Source of the DNA: Phycisphaerae bacterium
GTDB lineage: Bacteria > Planctomycetota > Phycisphaerae > UBA1845
Assembly: GCA_021604825.1 (NCBI GenBank)
Contig: BQJS01000095.1
Coordinates: 1 to 17,215 of the forward strand
Length of the DNA: 17,215 nucleotides
Direction: 5' to 3'
Position 1 is the first letter of the stretch. The number at the start of each line of letters is the position of its first letter. The translations under genes and the position numbers were made by a program. Below, in pieces: positions 7,249-14,746 of this stretch. The notes beneath the pieces are model-generated. The model made no database searches, was not told the origin of the DNA, and worked only from the letters and a program-made list of their open reading frames with translations.

Positions 7249-8946
7249 GTGCCGATCCGCATCTACAACAGTTTGAGCAATTCCAAAGAATCGTTTGAGA
7301 CCATCGAACCCGGAAAGGTGGGGATGTACCTCTGCGGGCCAACGGTTTACAAACCGTCGCACATTGGCCATGCGGTGGGCCCGGTCATCTTCGATACGAT
7401 CAAGCGATACCTCACGATCTTCCACGGATACAAGGTCAACTGGGTCGTGAACATCACCGATGTGGAAGACAAGCTCATCGCCGAAGCCAACGTCCAAGGC
7501 ATCGGCGTATTCGAGTTGGCCCAGCGCGTCGAACAAAACTATCACGATGCGCTCGCAGCCCTCGCCGTTGATGGCGTGGATCACTTTCCAAAAGCGTCAG
7601 AAAACATCGCCGAAATCATATCGATGATCGAAACGTTGATATCGACGGACTACGCTTACGTGGTTGGCGGCGACGTATACTTCAACGTCACCAATGACGA
7701 CGATTACGGCAAGCTTTCTAACCGCAACCCGGACGACCAGACCGGTCACCGCGAACTCGCGAGCGGGCCTAAGAAGCATCCCGGCGACTTCGCCCTATGG
7801 AAACAGGCCCGCGAGGACGAGCCGGATGCCGTCAAGTACGATTCCCCATGGGGTAAAGGCCGACCCGGATGGCACATCGAATGCTCGGCGATGTCGAAAA
7901 GGATTCTCGGCGATTCGTTTGACATCCATGGCGGCGGATTGGATCTGATCTTCCCGCATCATGAAAACGAAATCGCTCAGTCGGAATCCTGCACGCACAA
8001 ACCGTTCGCCAAGTACTGGATGCACCATGGCCTAACACGCTTCAACACAAAAAAGGTCAGCAAGTCCGACCCCGAAATGCAAGCCGCGTTGGCCGCGATG
8101 ACGCTCAGCAAATTGCTTGAGGAATACTCGGGCGAGTTGCTGCGGTTCTTTATCATCTCCACGCAATACCGTAGCCCCATCGAATATTCGCCAGCAGAGT
8201 TGGCCGGCAAGAAAAAGGGGCTGACGTCGTTCCACCGATTGTTCAAACGAGTCAACGATCTTGGCGCAGGCGATGTTTACGATGCACCGTCAGCCGCCGA
8301 CACAAGCACGTTCAAAATCGACCCGCAAGATCTCGGTGATCCAGCGATCGAGTTAGCCGCCTCAGTGGCCCACGCCCGTGACCGATTTCAAACGGCGATG
8401 GACGATGACTTCAATACTGCGGCTGCGACAGCGGTCCTGTTTGAACTGACCAACGATGTAAATCGCTTCATCGAAGTGAAGGGGCTGGAATCCTCCGATG
8501 ATAGTGCGGGCAAACAATTTGCGTTGAAAGCGGCACATGCTCTCGCCGCATTGGGGCAATCATTGGGGGTATTCTTGTCAGCGCCCGAGGTGGCGGCTGG
8601 TGGCGACGCACTGGTTGGCCAACTGATCGACGCTCTGCTGGAAGTCCGAAGCGCCTGCCGCACCGAAAAATGCTTCGAGCTAGCCGATCAGGTCCGCGAT
8701 CAGCTAAACGCACTCAACGTGTTGGTCGAGGACAAACCCTCCGGGGCGACGTGGTCGATTGAGAAGTCGTCGGACGATCTTCAATCGAAGCTCGTCGAAG
8801 CCCACATCCAGACACGATTGGCAAGCAAAGCCGCCAAGAACTTCACGTTGTCAGATATGATCCGCGATCGCCTGGCGAGCATCGGAGTGACGTTGGAAGA
8901 CCGAGCCGGCGGCACGACTTGGGAGTTGACCGAAAGCCAATCGTAG
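7249..8946 (+). CDS. cysS: Cysteine--tRNA ligase with a duplicated C-terminal segment
   Basis: 565 residues from a GTG start. It charges tRNA-Cys. Zinc ligands are C29, C212, H237 and E241, matching the E. coli set (C28, C209, H234, E238). The HIGH motif is H38-I-G-H41. The KMSKS loop reads KVSKS (269-273), with Val replacing Met. The enzyme is about 100 residues longer than the usual 460. Part of the excess is a C-terminal tandem duplication: residues 475-502 and 531-558 are two 28-residue copies of the segment that normally ends CysRS (F-x-L-x-D-x-x-R-D-x-L ... V-x-x-E-D ... G-x-T-W), 12 of 28 identical and 56 residues apart. The TAG stop (8944-8946) lies in the GTAG head of a REP palindrome. 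No strong Shine-Dalgarno sequence precedes the GTG. Confidence 0.96.
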   Translation: MPIRIYNSLSNSKESFETIEPGKVGMYLCGPTVYKPSHIGHAVGPVIFDTIKRYLTIFHGYKVNWVVNITDVEDKLIAEANVQGIGVFELAQRVEQNYHDALAALAVDGVDHFPKASENIAEIISMIETLISTDYAYVVGGDVYFNVTNDDDYGKLSNRNPDDQTGHRELASGPKKHPGDFALWKQAREDEPDAVKYDSPWGKGRPGWHIECSAMSKRILGDSFDIHGGGLDLIFPHHENEIAQSESCTHKPFAKYWMHHGLTRFNTKKVSKSDPEMQAALAAMTLSKLLEEYSGELLRFFIISTQYRSPIEYSPAELAGKKKGLTSFHRLFKRVNDLGAGDVYDAPSAADTSTFKIDPQDLGDPAIELAASVAHARDRFQTAMDDDFNTAAATAVLFELTNDVNRFIEVKGLESSDDSAGKQFALKAAHALAALGQSLGVFLSAPEVAAGGDALVGQLIDALLEVRSACRTEKCFELADQVRDQLNALNVLVEDKPSGATWSIEKSSDDLQSKLVEAHIQTRLASKAAKNFTLSDMIRDRLASIGVTLEDRAGGTTWELTESQS

Positions 8947-9008
8947 GGTGGGCCGTGCCCACCAAGTTGGTAAACATGCGTACGGCGGTGGGCACGGCCC
9001 ACCCTACG
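8942..9008. repeat. REP/iREP palindrome (BIME-like), copy 1
   Basis: Two perfect 22-bp arms (8942-8963 and 8987-9008) surround a 23-nt loop. Each arm, read inward, is C, then GTAG, then a 17-nt mini-hairpin: GGTGGGC, loop CGT, GCCCACC. A GTAG tetranucleotide followed by a short GC-rich hairpin is the known layout of REP units recognised by REP-associated tyrosine transposases (RAYT, TnpA-REP); two in inverted orientation form a BIME. The element sits between convergent genes, gives cysS its stop codon and may work as a bidirectional terminator, although there is no T tract. The same arms recur at 14224-14289. Confidence 0.85.
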
Positions 9009-9027
9009 GGCATTCACGCGACATCGA

Positions 9028-9771
9028 TCAACTACGCCGGATACTCTCCCTCAGCGTCCACGCTTCTTTGAACGCCCGAATAATCACCCGAAGATTGCCG
9101 CCAGTACTTTCGCCAGATTTGCGCGGATAATGCGTCACACCTGTTTGCACGATGTCATAACCCTGTCGCTCCGCGCGGGCGAGCATCTCCGTATCAATCA
9201 ACGCACCGTCGCTCTTGAGTTCGATCTGATCAATTAAGGCTTTGGGATAGAGCTTAAACGCGCAATCAATGTCCTTAATCCGCAAACCAAACATCACCCG
9301 CATCAATCTGCCCCAAAGCCAACCATTGAGCTTACGAAGGGTCGTGTCCTTCCGATTGACACGGTACGGGCTGACAACCCGTTCTTCAGACGCCAACGCG
9401 ATCACGCGATCTAACTCATTCAAATCAAACTGCCCGTCACCATCGGTGTAGAAAATCCAGTCCTTCGTCGCACTGCGAAAACCGAGCTTCAGCGCCGATC
9501 CGTACCCGCCGTTCGTTTCGTTGTGTACCGCCCTGATTATATCCCGATGCTCAGCCGCCAACCGATCGATCAACTCGGCCGTCCCATCTGAACTGCCGTC
9601 GTCAACCAGAATCACTTCGAGGTCATCGGTAAACCGTCGCCCCACTTCAATGGCAGACGCAGCCAATGCTTCGACGTGATCCACTTCATTGTAGAAGGGA
9701 AAGAAGATCGTCAGGCTATCAAGATGCAATGGCTCGGTGTTTGTCAAAGATGGACCTGTCGGCTGAAACAT
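9028..9771 (-). CDS. Family 2 glycosyltransferase, dolichyl-phosphate mannose synthase-like
   Basis: 247 residues, with a GT-A fold catalytic domain only and no membrane helix in view. Motifs in order: N-terminal strand 'LTIFFPFYNE' (19-29), VDDGSSDGT (56-64) for nucleotide-sugar binding, GGYGSALKLGF (88-98), the metal-binding DxD as TDGDGQFD (109-116), and DIDCAFKLY (167-175), which is typical of the DPM1-like subgroup. It probably transfers a sugar from a nucleotide donor to a polyprenyl phosphate or another acceptor at the membrane; donor and acceptor cannot be read from the sequence. The ATG at 9771 has no clear Shine-Dalgarno sequence. It lies 62 nt downstream of the zinc-ribbon bactofilin gene on the same strand and converges on cysS, with the REP palindrome just past its end. 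Confidence 0.9.
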   Translation of the reverse strand: MFQPTGPSLTNTEPLHLDSLTIFFPFYNEVDHVEALAASAIEVGRRFTDDLEVILVDDGSSDGTAELIDRLAAEHRDIIRAVHNETNGGYGSALKLGFRSATKDWIFYTDGDGQFDLNELDRVIALASEERVVSPYRVNRKDTTLRKLNGWLWGRLMRVMFGLRIKDIDCAFKLYPKALIDQIELKSDGALIDTEMLARAERQGYDIVQTGVTHYPRKSGESTGGNLRVIIRAFKEAWTLRESIRRS

Positions 9772-9803
9772 GGAAACGAATTCTGAGCGTTTCGCATGTT
9801 AAC

Positions 9804-9815
9804 TGACGATCGTCA
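9804..9815. promoter_or_regulatory. 12-bp perfect palindrome TGACGATCGTCA
   Basis: It lies between the end of the zinc-ribbon bactofilin gene and the start of the glycosyltransferase gene, about 33 nt before the latter. The size and perfect symmetry suit a dimeric DNA-binding protein; as RNA it could form only a 4-bp stem. No second copy was noticed in the window, so its role as an operator is a guess. Confidence 0.3.
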
Positions 9816-9833
9816 CGCGTGGTAGTTGCAAGC

Positions 9834-10125
9834 TTACTTGGATGCAGCAGCGGATTTGCGGCGGGTGCTGATCGCCTTGACTGTTGTGGATTTAACTTTG
9901 GTGGATTTGGTTTTTGCGGTGGATTCGCTGGTTGACGACTTGGCCGCAGATCTTGTGGTGATTTTCTTGACTGGCGTTTTCTTTGTTTCCGTTTTCTTGG
10001 CGGCGACCTTTCTCGTCGTCACCTTCTTGACGCCGTCTTTTTTTGCGGCCACTTTCTTCGTTGCGACTTTTTTCTTGGTAGTTTTCTTGGCGGCGGTCTT
10101 CTTCGCTGGTAGCTCTATTTCCAAA
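9834..10125 (-). repeat. Low-complexity coding tract (Lys/Ala/Thr repeats)
   Basis: The 3' third of the zinc-ribbon bactofilin gene consists of degenerate repeats of Lys-Lys, Ala-Ala-Lys-Lys and Thr-Lys-Lys codons, seen on the + strand as recurrent ttctt/cttgg-like runs. Such tracts are prone to length variation by slippage or recombination. Confidence 0.7.
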
Positions 10126-10655
10126 GCGTCTGCCGTCGCAATTGTCGTTTTCTTAATAGCGCTCGTCGTGCTGACTTTCTTGACACCATTGGTGGACGTG
10201 GTTCGGGTGCTTGATTGAGCGGGAACAGCCAATTCCGCGGGCTTCGGTTCTTCGGGTGCAACGGTGGTTGGGCGAATTTCGCAGTAACCATCGAACTGCG
10301 CGCCTTGCACGACAATCAACGACGTCGCTTTCAAGCTGCCTTCGAGCGATCCTGTTGATGTGACTTCAACCTTGCCTCGGGCTTCGACTTTGCCGTTGAC
10401 TTTGCCTTTGACGGTGAGACTGTTGGATTGAATGGGTGCGGCGACACGCCCGCGTTTCTCGACTGAAACATCACCGCAGGTCGCGTAACCTTTGACGGCT
10501 TGGTACGACTTGATGATGTAGTTTTCGAGGATTAAGCGTTTACGACAGTGGGCGCAAAAGACCGACATCGCTCGGGCAGCAACCTCATTGGCACCGCCGC
10601 AATGCGTGCAATTGACGATCTTCGTCTTGGCTTTCCTTAGCCCATTCACCGGCAT
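9834..10655 (-). CDS. Zinc-ribbon/bactofilin protein with a histone H1-like Lys/Ala tail
   Basis: 273 residues from the ATG at 10655. An in-frame TTG at 10673 would add six residues but has no ribosome binding site. There are three parts. Residues 16-37 form a zinc ribbon (C16-T-H-C19, C34-A-H-C37). Residues about 56-128 are a bactofilin-type repeat region (GDVSVEKRGRVAAPI, LTVKGKVNGKVEARGKVEV, GSLEGSLKA), expected to form a short right-handed beta-helix that polymerises. From about residue 157 to the end comes a basic, low-complexity tail rich in Lys, Ala, Thr and Ser with many AAKK/TKK repeats and no aromatic residue. Such tails resemble bacterial histone H1-like proteins that bind DNA. A separate canonical bactofilin lies upstream. 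I infer a cytoskeletal scaffold that may bind nucleic acid or the nucleoid. Domain calls are from motif reading only. Confidence 0.8.
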   Translation of the reverse strand: MPVNGLRKAKTKIVNCTHCGGANEVAARAMSVFCAHCRKRLILENYIIKSYQAVKGYATCGDVSVEKRGRVAAPIQSNSLTVKGKVNGKVEARGKVEVTSTGSLEGSLKATSLIVVQGAQFDGYCEIRPTTVAPEEPKPAELAVPAQSSTRTTSTNGVKKVSTTSAIKKTTIATADALEIELPAKKTAAKKTTKKKVATKKVAAKKDGVKKVTTRKVAAKKTETKKTPVKKITTRSAAKSSTSESTAKTKSTKVKSTTVKAISTRRKSAAASK

Positions 10656-10727
10656 CCATTCCGGGTACGGCAATGTCGTTTACGCGCCGAAACGCGACCG
10701 TCCTTTACGTCTTCAAATCTGCCCAAC

Positions 10728-10761
10728 CTGGCTCAGGGAACTGATTCGCTGGCTCAGGGAA
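10728..10761. repeat. 13-bp direct repeat, period 21
   Basis: CTGGCTCAGGGAA occurs at 10728-10740 and again at 10749-10761, exactly 21 bp (two helical turns) apart. It lies upstream of the zinc-ribbon bactofilin gene, downstream of its possible promoter. Same-face spacing would suit a protein-binding site; chance or a decayed duplication is also possible. Confidence 0.6.
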
Positions 10762-10822
10762 ACCACTTGCCCATTCGCCGGAAACCCAGCAACTGGCCCA
10801 TTCCCCATACCTAGCCCATTTA

Positions 10823-10851
10823 TCAATAGCAGGGATAAATCCACATGACAA
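10823..10851 (-). promoter_or_regulatory. Possible promoter for the zinc-ribbon bactofilin gene
   Basis: On the - strand: TTGTCA (10851-10846), a 17-nt spacer, then TATTGA (10828-10823) preceded by TGC, an extended -10-like context. The -35 matches five of six positions, the -10 only three. It would leave a leader of about 160 nt that includes the 13-bp direct repeat. Confidence 0.35.
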
Positions 10852-10938
10852 GAAGAATCTTCCCGCCATAAGGCCAAACTGCCGAATTTCTGCCCATCGA
10901 TTCCACCCGCGTGCAATCAGGGCAAAGACCCCAGCGAG

Positions 10939-10956
10939 TTTGCTTGGCCGAGCAAA
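10939..10956 (-). terminator. Hairpin just after the small bactofilin gene
   Basis: TTTGCT and AGCAAA form a 6-bp perfect stem (a seventh G-T pair is possible) with a short GC-rich loop. It begins 10 nt past the stop codon. There is no T tract, so it would be a weak terminator or an mRNA 3'-end stabiliser. Confidence 0.35.
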
Positions 10957-10965
10957 TTCTAACGC

Positions 10966-11382
10966 CTAGCGTTTGCCAGCCATTGCGGGTTCCGGAGTCG
11001 CTGATTTGCCCTTGGGAGCGGGAGCCGCTTGCCCGTTGGACTTGCTGTCCTTGGCACCGACCACAACGTGGCCGCTGAACATCGCACCGTCAGCCACTTC
11101 CAAACGTGCGGTTCGCATGTCACCTTCGAGATGGGCTGACGCGCTCAGCTTCACCTTGCCAGTCGCTTCGAGGTTCCCGGTCATCACGCCGTCGATCTTG
11201 ACCGTGCCTGCTTTGACATCGCCAGCCAGGTTCGCACCTTCGGCAATGAGCAAGTCACCCTTGCTGTCGATCTCGCCCTCGAACTTGCCAAGCAGACGCA
11301 TGCCCTTTTGAAACTTAAGCTCGCCTTTGAACGAAGCATCGGGACCAATGACGGTGGGATAGTCGTTGTTCGGATCAGCCAT
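10966..11382 (-). CDS. Bactofilin (polymer-forming cytoskeletal protein)
   Basis: 138 residues, typical for the family. After a short N-terminal segment, a run of beta-helix-type repeats covers residues about 12-110 (GPDASFKGELKF, GKFEGEIDSKGDLLIAEGANLAGDVKAGTVKIDGVMTGNLEA...). The tail is flexible and Ala/Pro/Lys-rich. Bactofilins self-assemble without nucleotide into non-polar filaments that act as scaffolds for cell-wall or polar proteins. The ATG at 11382 is set by a near-perfect ribosome binding site (AAGGAGG, about 9 nt upstream). A good promoter lies at 11497-11468, giving a leader of roughly 75-80 nt. The larger zinc-ribbon bactofilin gene follows on the same strand 310 nt downstream, so the two may co-assemble. 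Confidence 0.95.
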   Translation of the reverse strand: MADPNNDYPTVIGPDASFKGELKFQKGMRLLGKFEGEIDSKGDLLIAEGANLAGDVKAGTVKIDGVMTGNLEATGKVKLSASAHLEGDMRTARLEVADGAMFSGHVVVGAKDSKSNGQAAPAPKGKSATPEPAMAGKR

Positions 11383-11467
11383 GTCTTCAAACCTCCTTGT
11401 TTGGAGTTGCGTTGTCGGTGTGTGGGCCAGTCAACCAGACCCGTTGGCGTTGCTGCCCAAGAGTTCA

Positions 11468-11497
11468 TTTATATCCCGCTCCACCACCTTACGTCAA
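11468..11497 (-). promoter_or_regulatory. Sigma-70-like promoter of the bactofilin gene
   Basis: On the - strand: TTGACG (11497-11492), an 18-nt spacer, then TATAAA (11473-11468). Each hexamer matches five of six consensus positions. The transcript would start near 11461, about 79 nt before the ATG. This is the best promoter match I found in the window. Confidence 0.7.
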
Positions 11498-11503
11498 CGC
11501 CTT

Positions 11504-11557
11504 AGACACACCAACTTCGCGCGATCGCTCTGCAAAAAAGAGCAAAGACACACCAAC
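11504..11557. promoter_or_regulatory. Two 12-bp direct repeats upstream of the bactofilin promoter (possible activator sites)
   Basis: AGACACACCAAC lies at 11504-11515 and again at 11546-11557 (GTTGGTGTGTCT on the - strand). The period is 42 bp, four helical turns. The nearer copy sits just upstream of the -35 box. Centres fall at about -48 and -90 from the predicted start, positions typical of activator binding. A small inverted repeat (GCTCT/AGAGC) lies between them. Confidence 0.5.
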
Positions 11558-11641
11558 AAATTGAACTCTCGATTCAACCTGACGTGAAGCGCGCTGTGAG
11601 TTGTTTTGAACAGGAAACTAAGTGTCGCGATCGTGGCGGTA

Positions 11642-12148
11642 TTAACCGGGATTTGGGTCGCCACCGCTTTGTTGCGGCGTGCCGGGGTTGGGCGGATGGG
11701 GTCGCGGTTTGGCACGCATCACATGCAAACGGGCCTCGCGAAGCAATTCACCGTTGGAGAGCAATTGCACGCGGTATTGGCCGGCTTCGGGGAAGACCAG
11801 CCCATGAAATTGCAGTGCCAGATTTGCGACGGCCAGCGGTGATTGGAATTCGACCTTCCCTTGTCCCTGCACGAGCGGCTGACGGTTTTCGTTGGAATCG
11901 ACGATGCGAATCATCAAATCTACCGAACCGTGCCCGCTGGTCAGCGACGTATACACCGACAATTGCGGGTGATTCACCGGGAAGTTTGAGGCATGGATGG
12001 CGCTGAATATCCCAATCAACGACTGCTTGCCCGTCACACGATCGGTGATGATCTGGTCGCACACGACCAATGACAGGACTTCGGGTTGGGGTTGGATCTC
12101 TTCCACGGGTCCGATTCTACGGAATCTCCGGGAAATTGCACATGCCAT
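11642..12148 (-). CDS. DUF6941-like family protein
   Basis: 168 residues from the ATG at 12148, where GAAGGGA lies about 9 nt upstream; an internal GTG at 12106 would give 154 residues. The frame stays open up to 12346, but that extension would overlap the divergent sucC start and shows no family-like sequence. The conserved body begins with 'VLSLVVCDQIITDRVTGKQSLIGIFSAI' in pattern, continues with a predicted beta-sandwich (YTSLTSGHGSVDLMIRIVD, PEAGQYRVQLLSNGELL) and ends in a Pro/Gly-rich tail. This resembles DUF6941-type proteins that I associate with planctomycetes: small, cytoplasmic, of unknown function. It is divergent from sucC. Recognition is from memory of the family pattern, and no function is claimed. 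Confidence 0.72.
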   Translation of the reverse strand: MACAISRRFRRIGPVEEIQPQPEVLSLVVCDQIITDRVTGKQSLIGIFSAIHASNFPVNHPQLSVYTSLTSGHGSVDLMIRIVDSNENRQPLVQGQGKVEFQSPLAVANLALQFHGLVFPEAGQYRVQLLSNGELLREARLHVMRAKPRPHPPNPGTPQQSGGDPNPG

Positions 12149-12330
12149 TCGGGTGTCCCTTCGTCGCGGACACCGTGCCCTTGCATTGGTCGCGGGTGGC
12201 CCGTTGCGTTGTGGGCTATTCTTGTCAGAATGCGGGTCGGCCAAGCCACACCCCAACGGCGGAATGCCCAATTTTGCGCTGCAGGGCAGCTTGGACAACG
12301 ATACCGACACCACGAAACCCTCCATCGATC

Positions 12331-12336
12331 GAGGAG
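12331..12336 (+). promoter_or_regulatory. Ribosome binding site that decides the sucC start
   Basis: GAGGAG ends 8 nt before the ATG at 12345. The frame is open back to 11997, but this site and the conserved MKIHEYQA N-terminus mark the real start. Confidence 0.8.
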
Positions 12337-12344
12337 CGATTGCC

Positions 12345-13508
12345 ATGAAGATTCACGAATACCAGGCCCGAGACCTTTTGAGCGATGCTGGCGTCCCTGT
12401 TCCACCCTCATCCGTGGTCGAAACGGTCGCGGAAGCCGTCGATGCCTTCAAGAAAATCGGCTCCACCGTCGTGGTCAAAGCCCAGGTCTTCGCTGGTGGA
12501 CGCGGAAAAGCCGGTTTCGTGAAACTCTGCAAGACGGCTGACGAGGTTAAGGATGCGGCTCAATTCATGCTGACCAATCGCATGGTGTCGAATCAGACCG
12601 GTGCGGAAGGTATCGCCGTCAAGAAGCTTTTGATCGCCGACGCGGTTGATATTGAGTCGGAGTACTACGTCGCGGTCGTGCTGGATCGGGCCAAGCGTGC
12701 CCCAGTGGTAATGGTGTCGCGTGAAGGTGGCGTCGAAATTGAGGTGGTGGCCGAGCGCAATCCGGATGCGATCGTCAAGAAGTGGTTGGACCCGCACCTT
12801 GGACTGATGAACTTCCAGACGGCGCAATTGGTCGAAGCGTTGGGCTTTACCGACAAGCAGCAAGCCAAGGACGCGGCCAAGGTCATTCGCGGGCTCGTCA
12901 AAGTCTTCCTGAATAACGACTGCAGCCTCGCCGAGATCAACCCGCTGGTCCGCACAACTGATGGCAAAGTGCTGGCGATCGACGCGAAGATGAACTTTGA
13001 CGACAGTGCCCTTTTCCGTCATCCGAACTTGACCGAAATGCACGACAAGTCGGAAGAAAACCAAGCCGAACTTCGGGCCAAGGAACATGACCTGACGTAC
13101 ATCGCCCTCGATGGCAATATCGGCTGTCTTGTCAACGGTGCCGGCCTGGCGATGGCCACCATGGACATCATCAAACTCCACGGCGGCGAACCGGCCAACT
13201 TCCTCGACGTCGGCGGCAGCGTCACCAAAGAGGGCGCGGTCGAGGCGTTTAAGATTATCCTCGCCGACGACAAGGTCAAAGGCATCCTCGTCAACATCTT
13301 TGGCGGCATCGCCAAGTGCGACACGATCGCCGAAGCCCTCATCGCCGCCGCCCGCGAAATCGGTTTCAAAGTGCCAGTGGTCGTGCGACTGGAAGGCACC
13401 AACGTAGAACGAGCCCGCGAATTGCTAGCCGAAGCCAACATCGACGTCCTCGTTCCAGCCGACGACCTGACCGACGCGGCCAAGAAGGTCTGCGCCCAAG
13501 TGGCGTAA
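12345..13508 (+). CDS. sucC: Succinate--CoA ligase (ADP/GDP-forming), beta subunit
   Basis: 387 residues, normal length. In the TCA cycle it interconverts succinyl-CoA and succinate with ATP or GTP as a complex with the alpha subunit SucD. The N-terminus [12 protein letters not shown] is the family hallmark. The ATP-grasp region follows ([21 protein letters not shown] with metal-binding Asn; [10 protein letters not shown]). The C-terminal CoA-ligase half includes [26 protein letters not shown] and [17 protein letters not shown]. sucD, which normally follows directly, is absent: the next gene, 21 nt downstream, encodes a queuosine-precursor transporter. sucD must therefore be elsewhere. It is divergent from the DUF6941-like gene across about 196 nt. 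Confidence 0.97.
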
Positions 13509-13529
13509 TCAATCGCGCACACGCACACG

Positions 13530-14228
13530 ATGATGGCGTCAAACGAATTCCTGTTCTTCCTGCACGCAATCATCGGCGGCATTGTGTTGCTCATCGCCGC
13601 GCGGTTGGGCCGCCTTTATGTCGTCGGCGCGATCGTCACCTGCACCATCCTGATGAACATCGCAGTCCAGAAGCAGATGACGCTGTTCGGCATGACCGTG
13701 ACCGGCGGGAATGTCCTGTTCGGGCTGGTGTTTCTGGGCGTGGATATTCTCAACGAGCACTACGGTAAACACGTCGCCCGCCGCGCCGTGTTCGTCGGGT
13801 TCGCAGCCAACCTCTTCGTCGTATTGATGATGCAGTTCGTGCTGCGGTACAAACCCATCGAAGGCGACCCCGCACAAGAACCGATGATGTTCTTCTTCAA
13901 CGCAACAGCCTACCCCCGCATCGTCGGCGCATCGATGGCCAGCTACCTACTCTCGCAACTTCTGGACGTGCAAATCTATCAAGCCCTGCACATTCGAACC
14001 GGCGAGAAGAAGCTGTGGCTAAGAACCAACGCATCGACATGGCTAGCCCAGGCCTTCGACACCACGTTCTTCACCTTCGCCGGCCTATGGGGAACGGTCA
14101 TAACAACATGGCCCGAATTCCGCGATGCCGTTATCTTTGCTTACATCATCAAGATAGCAGTCGCGCTGCTCGCCACGCCGTTCTTATATCTGACCAAGTA
14201 CGGGCTAATGCGTCCGAAAGATTCGTAG
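13530..14228 (+). CDS. yhhQ: Queuosine precursor transporter (YhhQ/VUT family)
   Basis: 232 residues, almost wholly membrane-embedded with about six hydrophobic segments. Family signatures are visible: DILNEHYGK near residue 75, SYLLSQLLDVQIYQALH near 140 and LRTNASTWLAQAFDTTFFT near 170. The family (DUF165) imports queuosine precursors such as preQ0, preQ1 or queuine for wobble-base modification of tRNA. It starts 21 nt after sucC and probably shares its transcript. The ATG at 13530 is directly followed by a second ATG, and no clear Shine-Dalgarno sequence is seen, consistent with translational dependence on sucC. The TAG stop (14226-14228) is part of the GTAG head of REP palindrome copy 2. 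Whether it carries preQ0, preQ1 or queuine cannot be told. Confidence 0.93.
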   Translation: MMASNEFLFFLHAIIGGIVLLIAARLGRLYVVGAIVTCTILMNIAVQKQMTLFGMTVTGGNVLFGLVFLGVDILNEHYGKHVARRAVFVGFAANLFVVLMMQFVLRYKPIEGDPAQEPMMFFFNATAYPRIVGASMASYLLSQLLDVQIYQALHIRTGEKKLWLRTNASTWLAQAFDTTFFTFAGLWGTVITTWPEFRDAVIFAYIIKIAVALLATPFLYLTKYGLMRPKDS

Positions 14229-14289
14229 GGTGGGCCGTGCCCACCGCAGTTTGAACCACAACGACATGGTGGGCACGGCCCACCCTACG
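14224..14289. repeat. REP/iREP palindrome (BIME-like), copy 2
   Basis: The 22-bp arms (14224-14245 and 14268-14289) are identical to those at 8942-9008; the 22-nt loop is unrelated. Again each arm is GTAG plus GGTGGGC-CGT-GCCCACC. The left GTAG supplies the TAG stop of yhhQ, and the right one, read on the - strand (14287-14285), supplies the TAG stop of the convergent unknown gene. Identical arms with different loops show that the arms are the conserved unit. Confidence 0.87.
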
Positions 14290-14710
14290 TAATCCTCCCA
14301 GACCATTTGAACTCAACGCACTCGTCACTGGAATCCAATGTGAGCGGGCCCTCGCTGTATTCCGGATTCCAACTTGAACCAGAGATACATCGACCGTTTC
14401 GAAACTCATTCCGAAAGACAATCTGGTCATCAAGGATCGCCTGAACCCACTCAAGTGAATGCTCAGCCGCAAGGCGCTCACGAACCTCTTGCGTACCTTC
14501 TTCGCAGAACGCCTCAAAGTGACAATGGTCGTTTGGCTCAACGAGAACCGTCAATTCAACATCATCGTCGCGGACCACAAGGTCTCCAACGCCGTTCTCG
14601 CAGGCGGGAACTCGAAGTATCTCTGTGCCTTCTTCTATGGCAAAGGCCTTCAACGATTGTGGCAGTAGGCGCATAAATGTCTGTGCAAGGCTTGATCGCG
14701 CCGTTGTCAT
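14285..14710 (-). CDS. Hypothetical protein, 141 residues
   Basis: I do not recognise the family. The ATG at 14710 has a strong ribosome binding site (GGAGG, 7 nt upstream), which is the main reason to accept it as a gene. The product is soluble and acidic, with a Cys/His-containing middle (EPNDHCHFEAFCEEGTQEVRE), a segment LEWVQAILDDQIVFRNEF and a Trp-containing C-terminus ending in SGRIT. There is no signal peptide or membrane helix. Its stop is the TAG of the REP palindrome, so its original C-terminus may have been changed by the repeat. It starts 36 nt after the prolyl isomerase gene on the same strand and could be the last gene of that unit. Size and composition would fit a small immunity-like or regulatory protein, but nothing shows that. 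Confidence 0.65.
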   Translation of the reverse strand: MTTARSSLAQTFMRLLPQSLKAFAIEEGTEILRVPACENGVGDLVVRDDDVELTVLVEPNDHCHFEAFCEEGTQEVRERLAAEHSLEWVQAILDDQIVFRNEFRNGRCISGSSWNPEYSEGPLTLDSSDECVEFKWSGRIT

Positions 14711-14746
14711 TGTGAACCTCCAAAAGGTGCGGCAAATCGAACCCTA

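Follow-up and report, generated by a model that had tools for sequence, protein, structure and literature searches.

REPIN arms as stop codons of neighbouring genes in a Phycisphaerae bacterium and its relatives

Two REPINs and the genes beside them

The stretch of DNA analysed here, called the window below, is a contig of 17,215 nucleotides (nt) from a Phycisphaerae bacterium (GCA_021604825.1, BQJS01000095.1). It contains two palindromic elements composed of arms of a repetitive extragenic palindrome (REP), and the subject of this analysis is the use of the TAG in the GTAG head of such arms as the stop codon of the adjoining gene. The arm reads GTAG-GGTGGGC-CGT-GCCCACC, forms a hairpin with a 7-bp stem and a 3-nt loop, and builds two dimers with their heads pointing outwards, at 8943-9007 (65 nt) and 14225-14288 (64 nt). 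Exact copies of GTAGGGTGGGCCGTGCCCACC were found four times, at 8943-8963 (+), 8987-9007 (-), 14225-14245 (+) and 14268-14288 (-), and a search allowing up to 3 mismatches gave 6 matches in the window against 0.01 expected. Counting the flanking C, each arm spans 22 nt and is 100% complementary to the other; the gap between them is 23 nt in the first dimer (spacer at 8964-8986) and 22 nt in the second (spacer at 14246-14267, of the GCAGTTTG...CAACGACAT type). Both dimers are predicted to fold as a single hairpin, with energies of -52.1 and -50.3 kcal/mol and z-scores of -7.5 and -7.7. An intrinsic terminator reading of the dimers was rejected, as none of the 6 terminator-like sites in 8800-14600, where 6.7 are expected by chance, coincides with either of them.

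Each dimer is situated between convergent genes. The first lies between cysS (7249-8946, + strand, 565 residues) and a glycosyltransferase family 2 gene (9028-9771, - strand), the second between yhhQ, a queuosine precursor transporter gene (13530-14228, + strand, 232 residues), and a small gene without assigned function (14285-14710, - strand, 141 residues). The original prediction, made from the letters of the window, was that cysS, yhhQ and the small gene all end at a REP TAG, and the coordinates bear this out for three of the four arms. The GTAG of the first arm occupies 8943-8946 and its TAG at 8944-8946 ends cysS; the TAG of the third arm at 14226-14228 ends yhhQ, and that of the fourth, on the opposite strand at 14287-14285, ends the small gene. 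The TAG of the second arm is unused and ends 24 nt beyond the stop of the glycosyltransferase gene (offset -24), which has a TGA of its own. The common phase of the three stops (TCG TAG, TCG TAG and ACG TAG) had also been pointed out; it is real and adds nothing, because the C before GTAG is shared by all four arms and the phase follows once the TAG is in frame.

The protein of the small gene has no match in Pfam or NCBIfam, and the gene was not found in the 6 relatives searched. A protein search gave four matches, including a shorter prediction from the window itself. P0001 is 79% identical and P0003 ends earlier; P0004, 48% identical and 8 residues longer, gives a weaker comparison. Judged by these homologues the small gene is real, because the 79% identical protein ends at the identical residue. 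The interval from yhhQ to a peptidyl-prolyl isomerase-like gene (14225-14746) is variable, the gene order from cysS to mfd being otherwise conserved in the window and in two relatives, G001 and G003. It is occupied by the REPIN and the small gene in the window, by a Y1 transposase gene in G001 (L001, about 9400-9930; also G001:C126:9670-9930), and by a REP of another family (family B) with other sequence in G003.

REP family and cognate transposase in related genomes

By CysS identity the closest relatives are G001 (Phycisphaerales UBA1845) and G002 (Phycisphaerae 8_bin.52), both at 90%, followed by G003 (Phycisphaerae OFTM112) at 83% and G004 (Planctomycetota M_MetaBat.71) at 78%. The exact arm pattern occurs 142, 182, 208 and 86 times in G001 to G004 respectively, a control pattern 0 times, and no copy was found in G005-G008. 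Of 51 genomes taken as the G003 family in the search, 19 contain a match to the pattern. The sequence is thus a GTAG 5' of a short perfect hairpin in many dispersed copies in G001-G004, as REPs are defined. The arrangement of the arms was followed in fetched stretches covering 97 of the 142 arms of G001, picked around listed sites, and 131 of the 208 arms of G003, partly continuous. Paired arms are always head-out, with 32 such pairs in G001, 56 in G003 and two in the window, and the opposite arrangement never occurs. Spacers in the G001 and G003 stretches are mostly 22-23 nt long, alike at their ends and diverse in the middle between copies. Two inverted REPs around a short diverse spacer are what characterises a REPIN, a REP doublet hairpin.

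A REP-associated tyrosine transposase (RAYT) gene flanked on both sides by the same arms in inverted orientation, the organization called a REPtron, was found in G001 (L126) and in G003 (L127). The two score 186.5 and 179.2 bits against NCBIfam NF047646 (REP-associated tyrosine transposase; cut-off 80). The proposal that the palindromes belong to a REP/RAYT system is upheld by this cognate gene in two relatives, and the window elements fit REPINs of a REP family presumably mobilised by a RAYT. A sister RAYT gene, associated with arms of family C (GGTCCGC), has as its stop, in G001 as well as G003, the TAG of the REP that follows it. L126 and L127 adjoin what is apparently the same flanking gene end in opposite orientation, as if flipped between inverted REPs or inserted twice. 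At orthologous REPIN sites of G001 and G003 the arms are identical and the spacers differ, in places being reversed (ATGTCGTTG... against GCCGTTTG...). Identical arms around differing spacers suggest that elements were exchanged, inverted or inserted anew at one site.

The REP TAG as stop codon and the ends of the proteins

The use of the TAG was counted in the stretches of the two relatives G001 and G003. Genes were called by a simple codon-usage caller, which in the window missed the real small gene. The offset is the distance from the arm TAG to the nearest gene end on the same strand, so that the TAG is the stop at offset 0. Among 320 GTAG hairpin arms, 173 have a same-strand gene end within 60 nt, and 47 of these 173 lie at offset 0. 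The 27 offsets from -30 to -4 together hold 93 arms, or 3.44 each, and the largest other bin holds 8. The Poisson probability of offset 0 against this mean is 2e-36, to be taken as a guide only as related genomes share some sites. GTAG arms in these two relatives therefore supply the stop codons of their neighbours far above chance, which is the in-frame excess that had been anticipated for the family. The window itself, with three of four arms, exceeds the overall rate in the relatives (47/320 arms, or 47/173 of those facing a gene end within 60 nt).

The share at offset 0 is 25/118 for family A, to which the window arms belong, 6/11 for family B (GGTGCGG), 15/29 for family C and 1/12 for family D (GTCGGGT). 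The excess is thus present in three of four REP families and absent from family D. Stops at exact family A arms numbered 14 and 12 in one count and 13 and 12 in the offset count, which omits arms at the ends of stretches. When only genes with a reciprocal orthologue were kept, 20 arms remained at offset 0 against 1.70 per offset, and six control hairpin heads gave 0 at offset 0. Unused TAGs at offsets -60 to -3 are distributed about evenly over the three phases (36/38/50), and a general role as in-frame backup stops was ruled out on this basis. In terms of distance, 47 of the 320 arms lie at 0 nt from a stop and 54 at 1-15 nt; only 3 are inside a called gene of the same strand and 4 inside one of the opposite strand. 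TAG, the amber codon, ends 203 of 580 called genes of at least 450 nt in G001 and 402 of 1105 in G003, and a share of over one third of genes is unusually high.

For hairpins headed by GTCA (family TTCCCGC/CTCCCGC) offset 0 is empty (0 arms), yet offsets -41 and -10 hold 10 and 6 genes, which speaks against a reading confined to GTAG. Most of the genes beside them have a TAG stop, frequently as CTAG, on the border of another dispersed repeat (19 entries). This second repeat consists of an upstream part of about 40 nt and a GTCATTCCCGC hairpin in G001, with a shorter form in G003 (e.g. L236, L237 and L276). It often begins with CTAG, the TAG of which is the stop of the preceding gene, and appears as a second mobile repeat lending stops. 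Since it also supplies TAG stops, the RAYT tetranucleotide is not alone in lending them.

Comparison with orthologues showed that the protein ends have hardly moved. A REP TAG serves as the stop in one or both members of 19 distinct orthologue pairs, and in none of the 19 are the protein ends more than 4 codons apart, being equal in 9, longer in 7 and shorter in 3. Pairs without a REP within 60 nt agree within 4 codons in 95% of cases (251 and 257 pairs, by direction), and the shifts at REP-TAG stops are in the ordinary range. The idea that the element replaces the native C-terminus is not supported by these figures, and it was ruled out within those limits, yhhQ and the small protein being exceptions or weaker comparisons. 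The yhhQ protein, which is outside the 19 pairs, has 232 residues in the window, in G003 (P0006) and in P0008 and P0009, and 239 in the G001 type (P0007); the window protein is thus 7 residues shorter than that of G001, and most of the remoter homologues are longer.

In 14 pairs, the stop of the partner is not part of a REP head. These partners stop with TAA (5), TGA (4), GTAG (4) or TTAG (1), and the REP-terminated protein is longer in 6 (+1 to +4, cysS being +4), equal in 5 and shorter in 3. A fifteenth case is sucC, with three different stops at one codon: TGA in G003, TAA in the window and, in G001, a TAG supplied by a family B REP. A stop position shared by element-free orthologues had been named beforehand as evidence against the proposal. 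It was found for sucC and for 5 of the 14 partners, four of which have a TAG or TAA free of a REP or displaced from it; the other 9 differ.

Individual genes indicate that the routes to a TAG stop differ, among them takeover from a nearby TAA or TGA, joining to an older GTAG stop and the presence of another REP family at the same stop. The REP TAG is the stop of cysS in the window and G001; G002 has TAA two codons earlier and G003 has TGA four codons earlier, the latter at the stop position of the four outgroups G005-G008. As G003 and these outgroups stop four codons earlier, and the window, G001, G002 and G003 all have the REP TAG in one and the same frame, the old stop of cysS was lost and the REP TAG took over, adding 4 residues relative to the G003 orthologue. 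An S9-type peptidase gene reads AAG TAG fused to a REP in G003, AAG TAG CCC GTAG in G001 (REP 3 nt on), AAG TAA in G002 with a REP a few nt on, and AAG TAG without such a REP in the more distant G004; its TAG is probably older than the joining of the REP. A phospholipase-D-like gene ends with CTG TAG in G001, G002 and G003, with a REP fused only in G003 and about 22 nt on in G001 and G002, and with TGA in G004 and G005. At yhhQ the stop falls on the same codon throughout, provided by a family A REPIN in the window and by a REP of family B in G002 and G003. A gene on G003:C2 has a G001 partner which reads AAG TAG AGCC. The stop of the glycosyltransferase gene is a REP TAG in G002 and G003 and the TAG of a decayed REP in G001.

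Possible origin of the excess and comparison with known systems

The explanation we favour, with a probability of about 0.72 for the whole, is that GTAG-headed REPINs lying behind genes lend the stop by several routes, with tolerance as the main cause of the excess. REPINs would be non-autonomous dimers of the GTAG-headed REP, presumably spread by an IS200/IS605-type RAYT with GTAG as its guide, and would come to rest just behind genes. Where the frame of a gene runs into the head, the TAG would end translation and a near-normal protein would be kept. Selection would tolerate heads lying no more than a few codons from the old stop in that one frame, and junctions in the other two frames, which would add a REP-coded tail, are rarely seen. 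A TAG stop once gained could persist across species. Gain may have proceeded by loss of the old stop with capture downstream (cysS), by joining of a REP to an existing GTAG stop, or by exchange of REP families at one stop (yhhQ).

Several results weigh against this explanation in its simplest form. In a null model, a consensus REPIN was placed at random positions near 1185 gene ends of G003, with any change from -3 to +4 codons being accepted; offset 0 then reached 4.2 times its neighbours against 13.7 times observed. The model gave 2.9 cases of read-through per offset-0 case against about 0.04-0.06 observed (2 within 60 nt, or 3 at any distance, for 47). Simple tolerance is therefore insufficient unless read-through cases were additionally lost or further junctions gained at stops. 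GTAG is preceded by C or T in 176 of 202 non-stop arms against 17 of 26 stop arms (Fisher p 0.008); this may reflect another kind of junction, and coding constraint could produce the same difference, so it is suggestive only. No transposition was seen, and clean empty sites are few because the relatives share most alignable REP sites. The 15 alignments chosen among 86 site pairs (some counted twice, with overlapping loci) yielded no target consensus for empty sites, many having a diverged REP, N gaps or poor alignment. Tolerance of the safe frame, loss of read-through cases, capture and joining at existing GTAG can together explain both the shortage of read-through junctions and the surplus at the stop.

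Another origin of the pattern is that the stop is the landing site: the RAYT system would insert REPs at existing GTAG, NNG TAG stops would survive the insertion and the stop would predate the REP. The four of 15 partners (the 14 and sucC) with a GTAG stop at or within one codon and no joined REP, the genes on G003:C2, for the S9 peptidase and for the phospholipase-D-like protein being examples, are in line with this, as are the change of REP family at the yhhQ stop, the different base before GTAG at stops and the excess above the random-insertion model. However, GTAG is the stop context of 40/292 (13.7%) and 38/307 (12.4%) orthologue-backed genes, and with this background of 12-14% four of 15 is not a significant share (binomial p 0.10 at 12% and 0.18 at 15%). 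Moreover, TAA or TGA is the stop of 10 of the 15 partners, a deletion between two GTAG copies would explain the fused state in G003 equally well, and the available text of PMC8266576 treats GTAG as an internal guide of the element, with CT (or CA) as the sites of cleavage. Insertion at existing stops is on balance unlikely as the general origin. A RAYT with a GTAG guide that prefers NNG TAG stops as points of landing or exchange, so that REP families swap while the last codon stays fixed as at yhhQ, is doubtful to the same degree.

Random insertion behind genes followed only by capture, in which the old stop disappears later and an in-frame TAG 1 to 4 codons downstream serves purely as fallback, would account for cysS and the five other longer proteins among the 14 pairs. 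It does not account for the 5 of unchanged length and the 3 shorter ones, and offset 0 far outnumbers any in-frame position downstream; as the sole process it is rather improbable. Chance combined with gene calling, in which longest-frame calls would make one third of the arms within or behind a frame look like stops, could draw on the one real window gene that the simple caller missed, but the persistence of the excess in orthologue-backed genes and its absence from the control heads make it very improbable. Lending of stops by resting REPINs, mainly through tolerance, thus remains the preferred explanation.

The qualitative fact is already in print as a remark of 2013, which states that GTAG REP termini "often provide" the TAG stop of neighbouring genes (Di Nocera, De Gregorio and Rocco 2013, PMC3733652); that stop is named 'opal' there. 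The GTAG-tagged REPs described in the available text of that paper resemble the window family in the GTAG head, short hairpin, high copy number, dimers and position downstream of genes. They differ in that the present family is in the Phycisphaerae group, and that text gives no offset count or orthologue comparison of stops. A literature search, with subscription papers and supplements outside it, found no published count or orthologue test of REP TAG stops; the count of TAG use and the orthologue comparison are new. The remark is thereby given a number, as about a quarter of the GTAG REP arms facing a nearby gene end are its stop in stretches of two genomes. The cost in protein length is almost nil, which explains how the element can sit flush against genes, and the results suggest that gene ends may record REP insertion and exchange.

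In the accessible portions of the respective papers, the other known systems are also close. REPINs (PMC8049555) share with the window elements two inverted REPs, a short diverse spacer and a single hairpin, and no difference was found. The REPtron or TnpA-REP (PMC8266576) likewise has a RAYT gene bordered by inverted REPs with GTAG 5' of the palindrome. The Stenotrophomonas REP (PMC8266576), with an 8-bp palindrome and a 3-nt loop, is close to the 7-bp stem and 3-nt loop found here. The Haemophilus influenzae REP GTAGGGTGGGCTTcAGCCCACC (PMC2817692) has the same head and first stem bases (GTAGGGTGGGC) as the window arm, with another loop and in another host phylum. REPs of E. coli within 15 nt of a stop have been reported to stall ribosomes (Liang 2015, as cited in PMC12306157). 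By analogy, an effect of this kind would be predicted for the present family, in which the hairpin begins with the base directly following the stop, where the E. coli REPs reportedly act. In both systems the hairpin follows right behind the stop; unlike in E. coli, the stop here lies inside the element.

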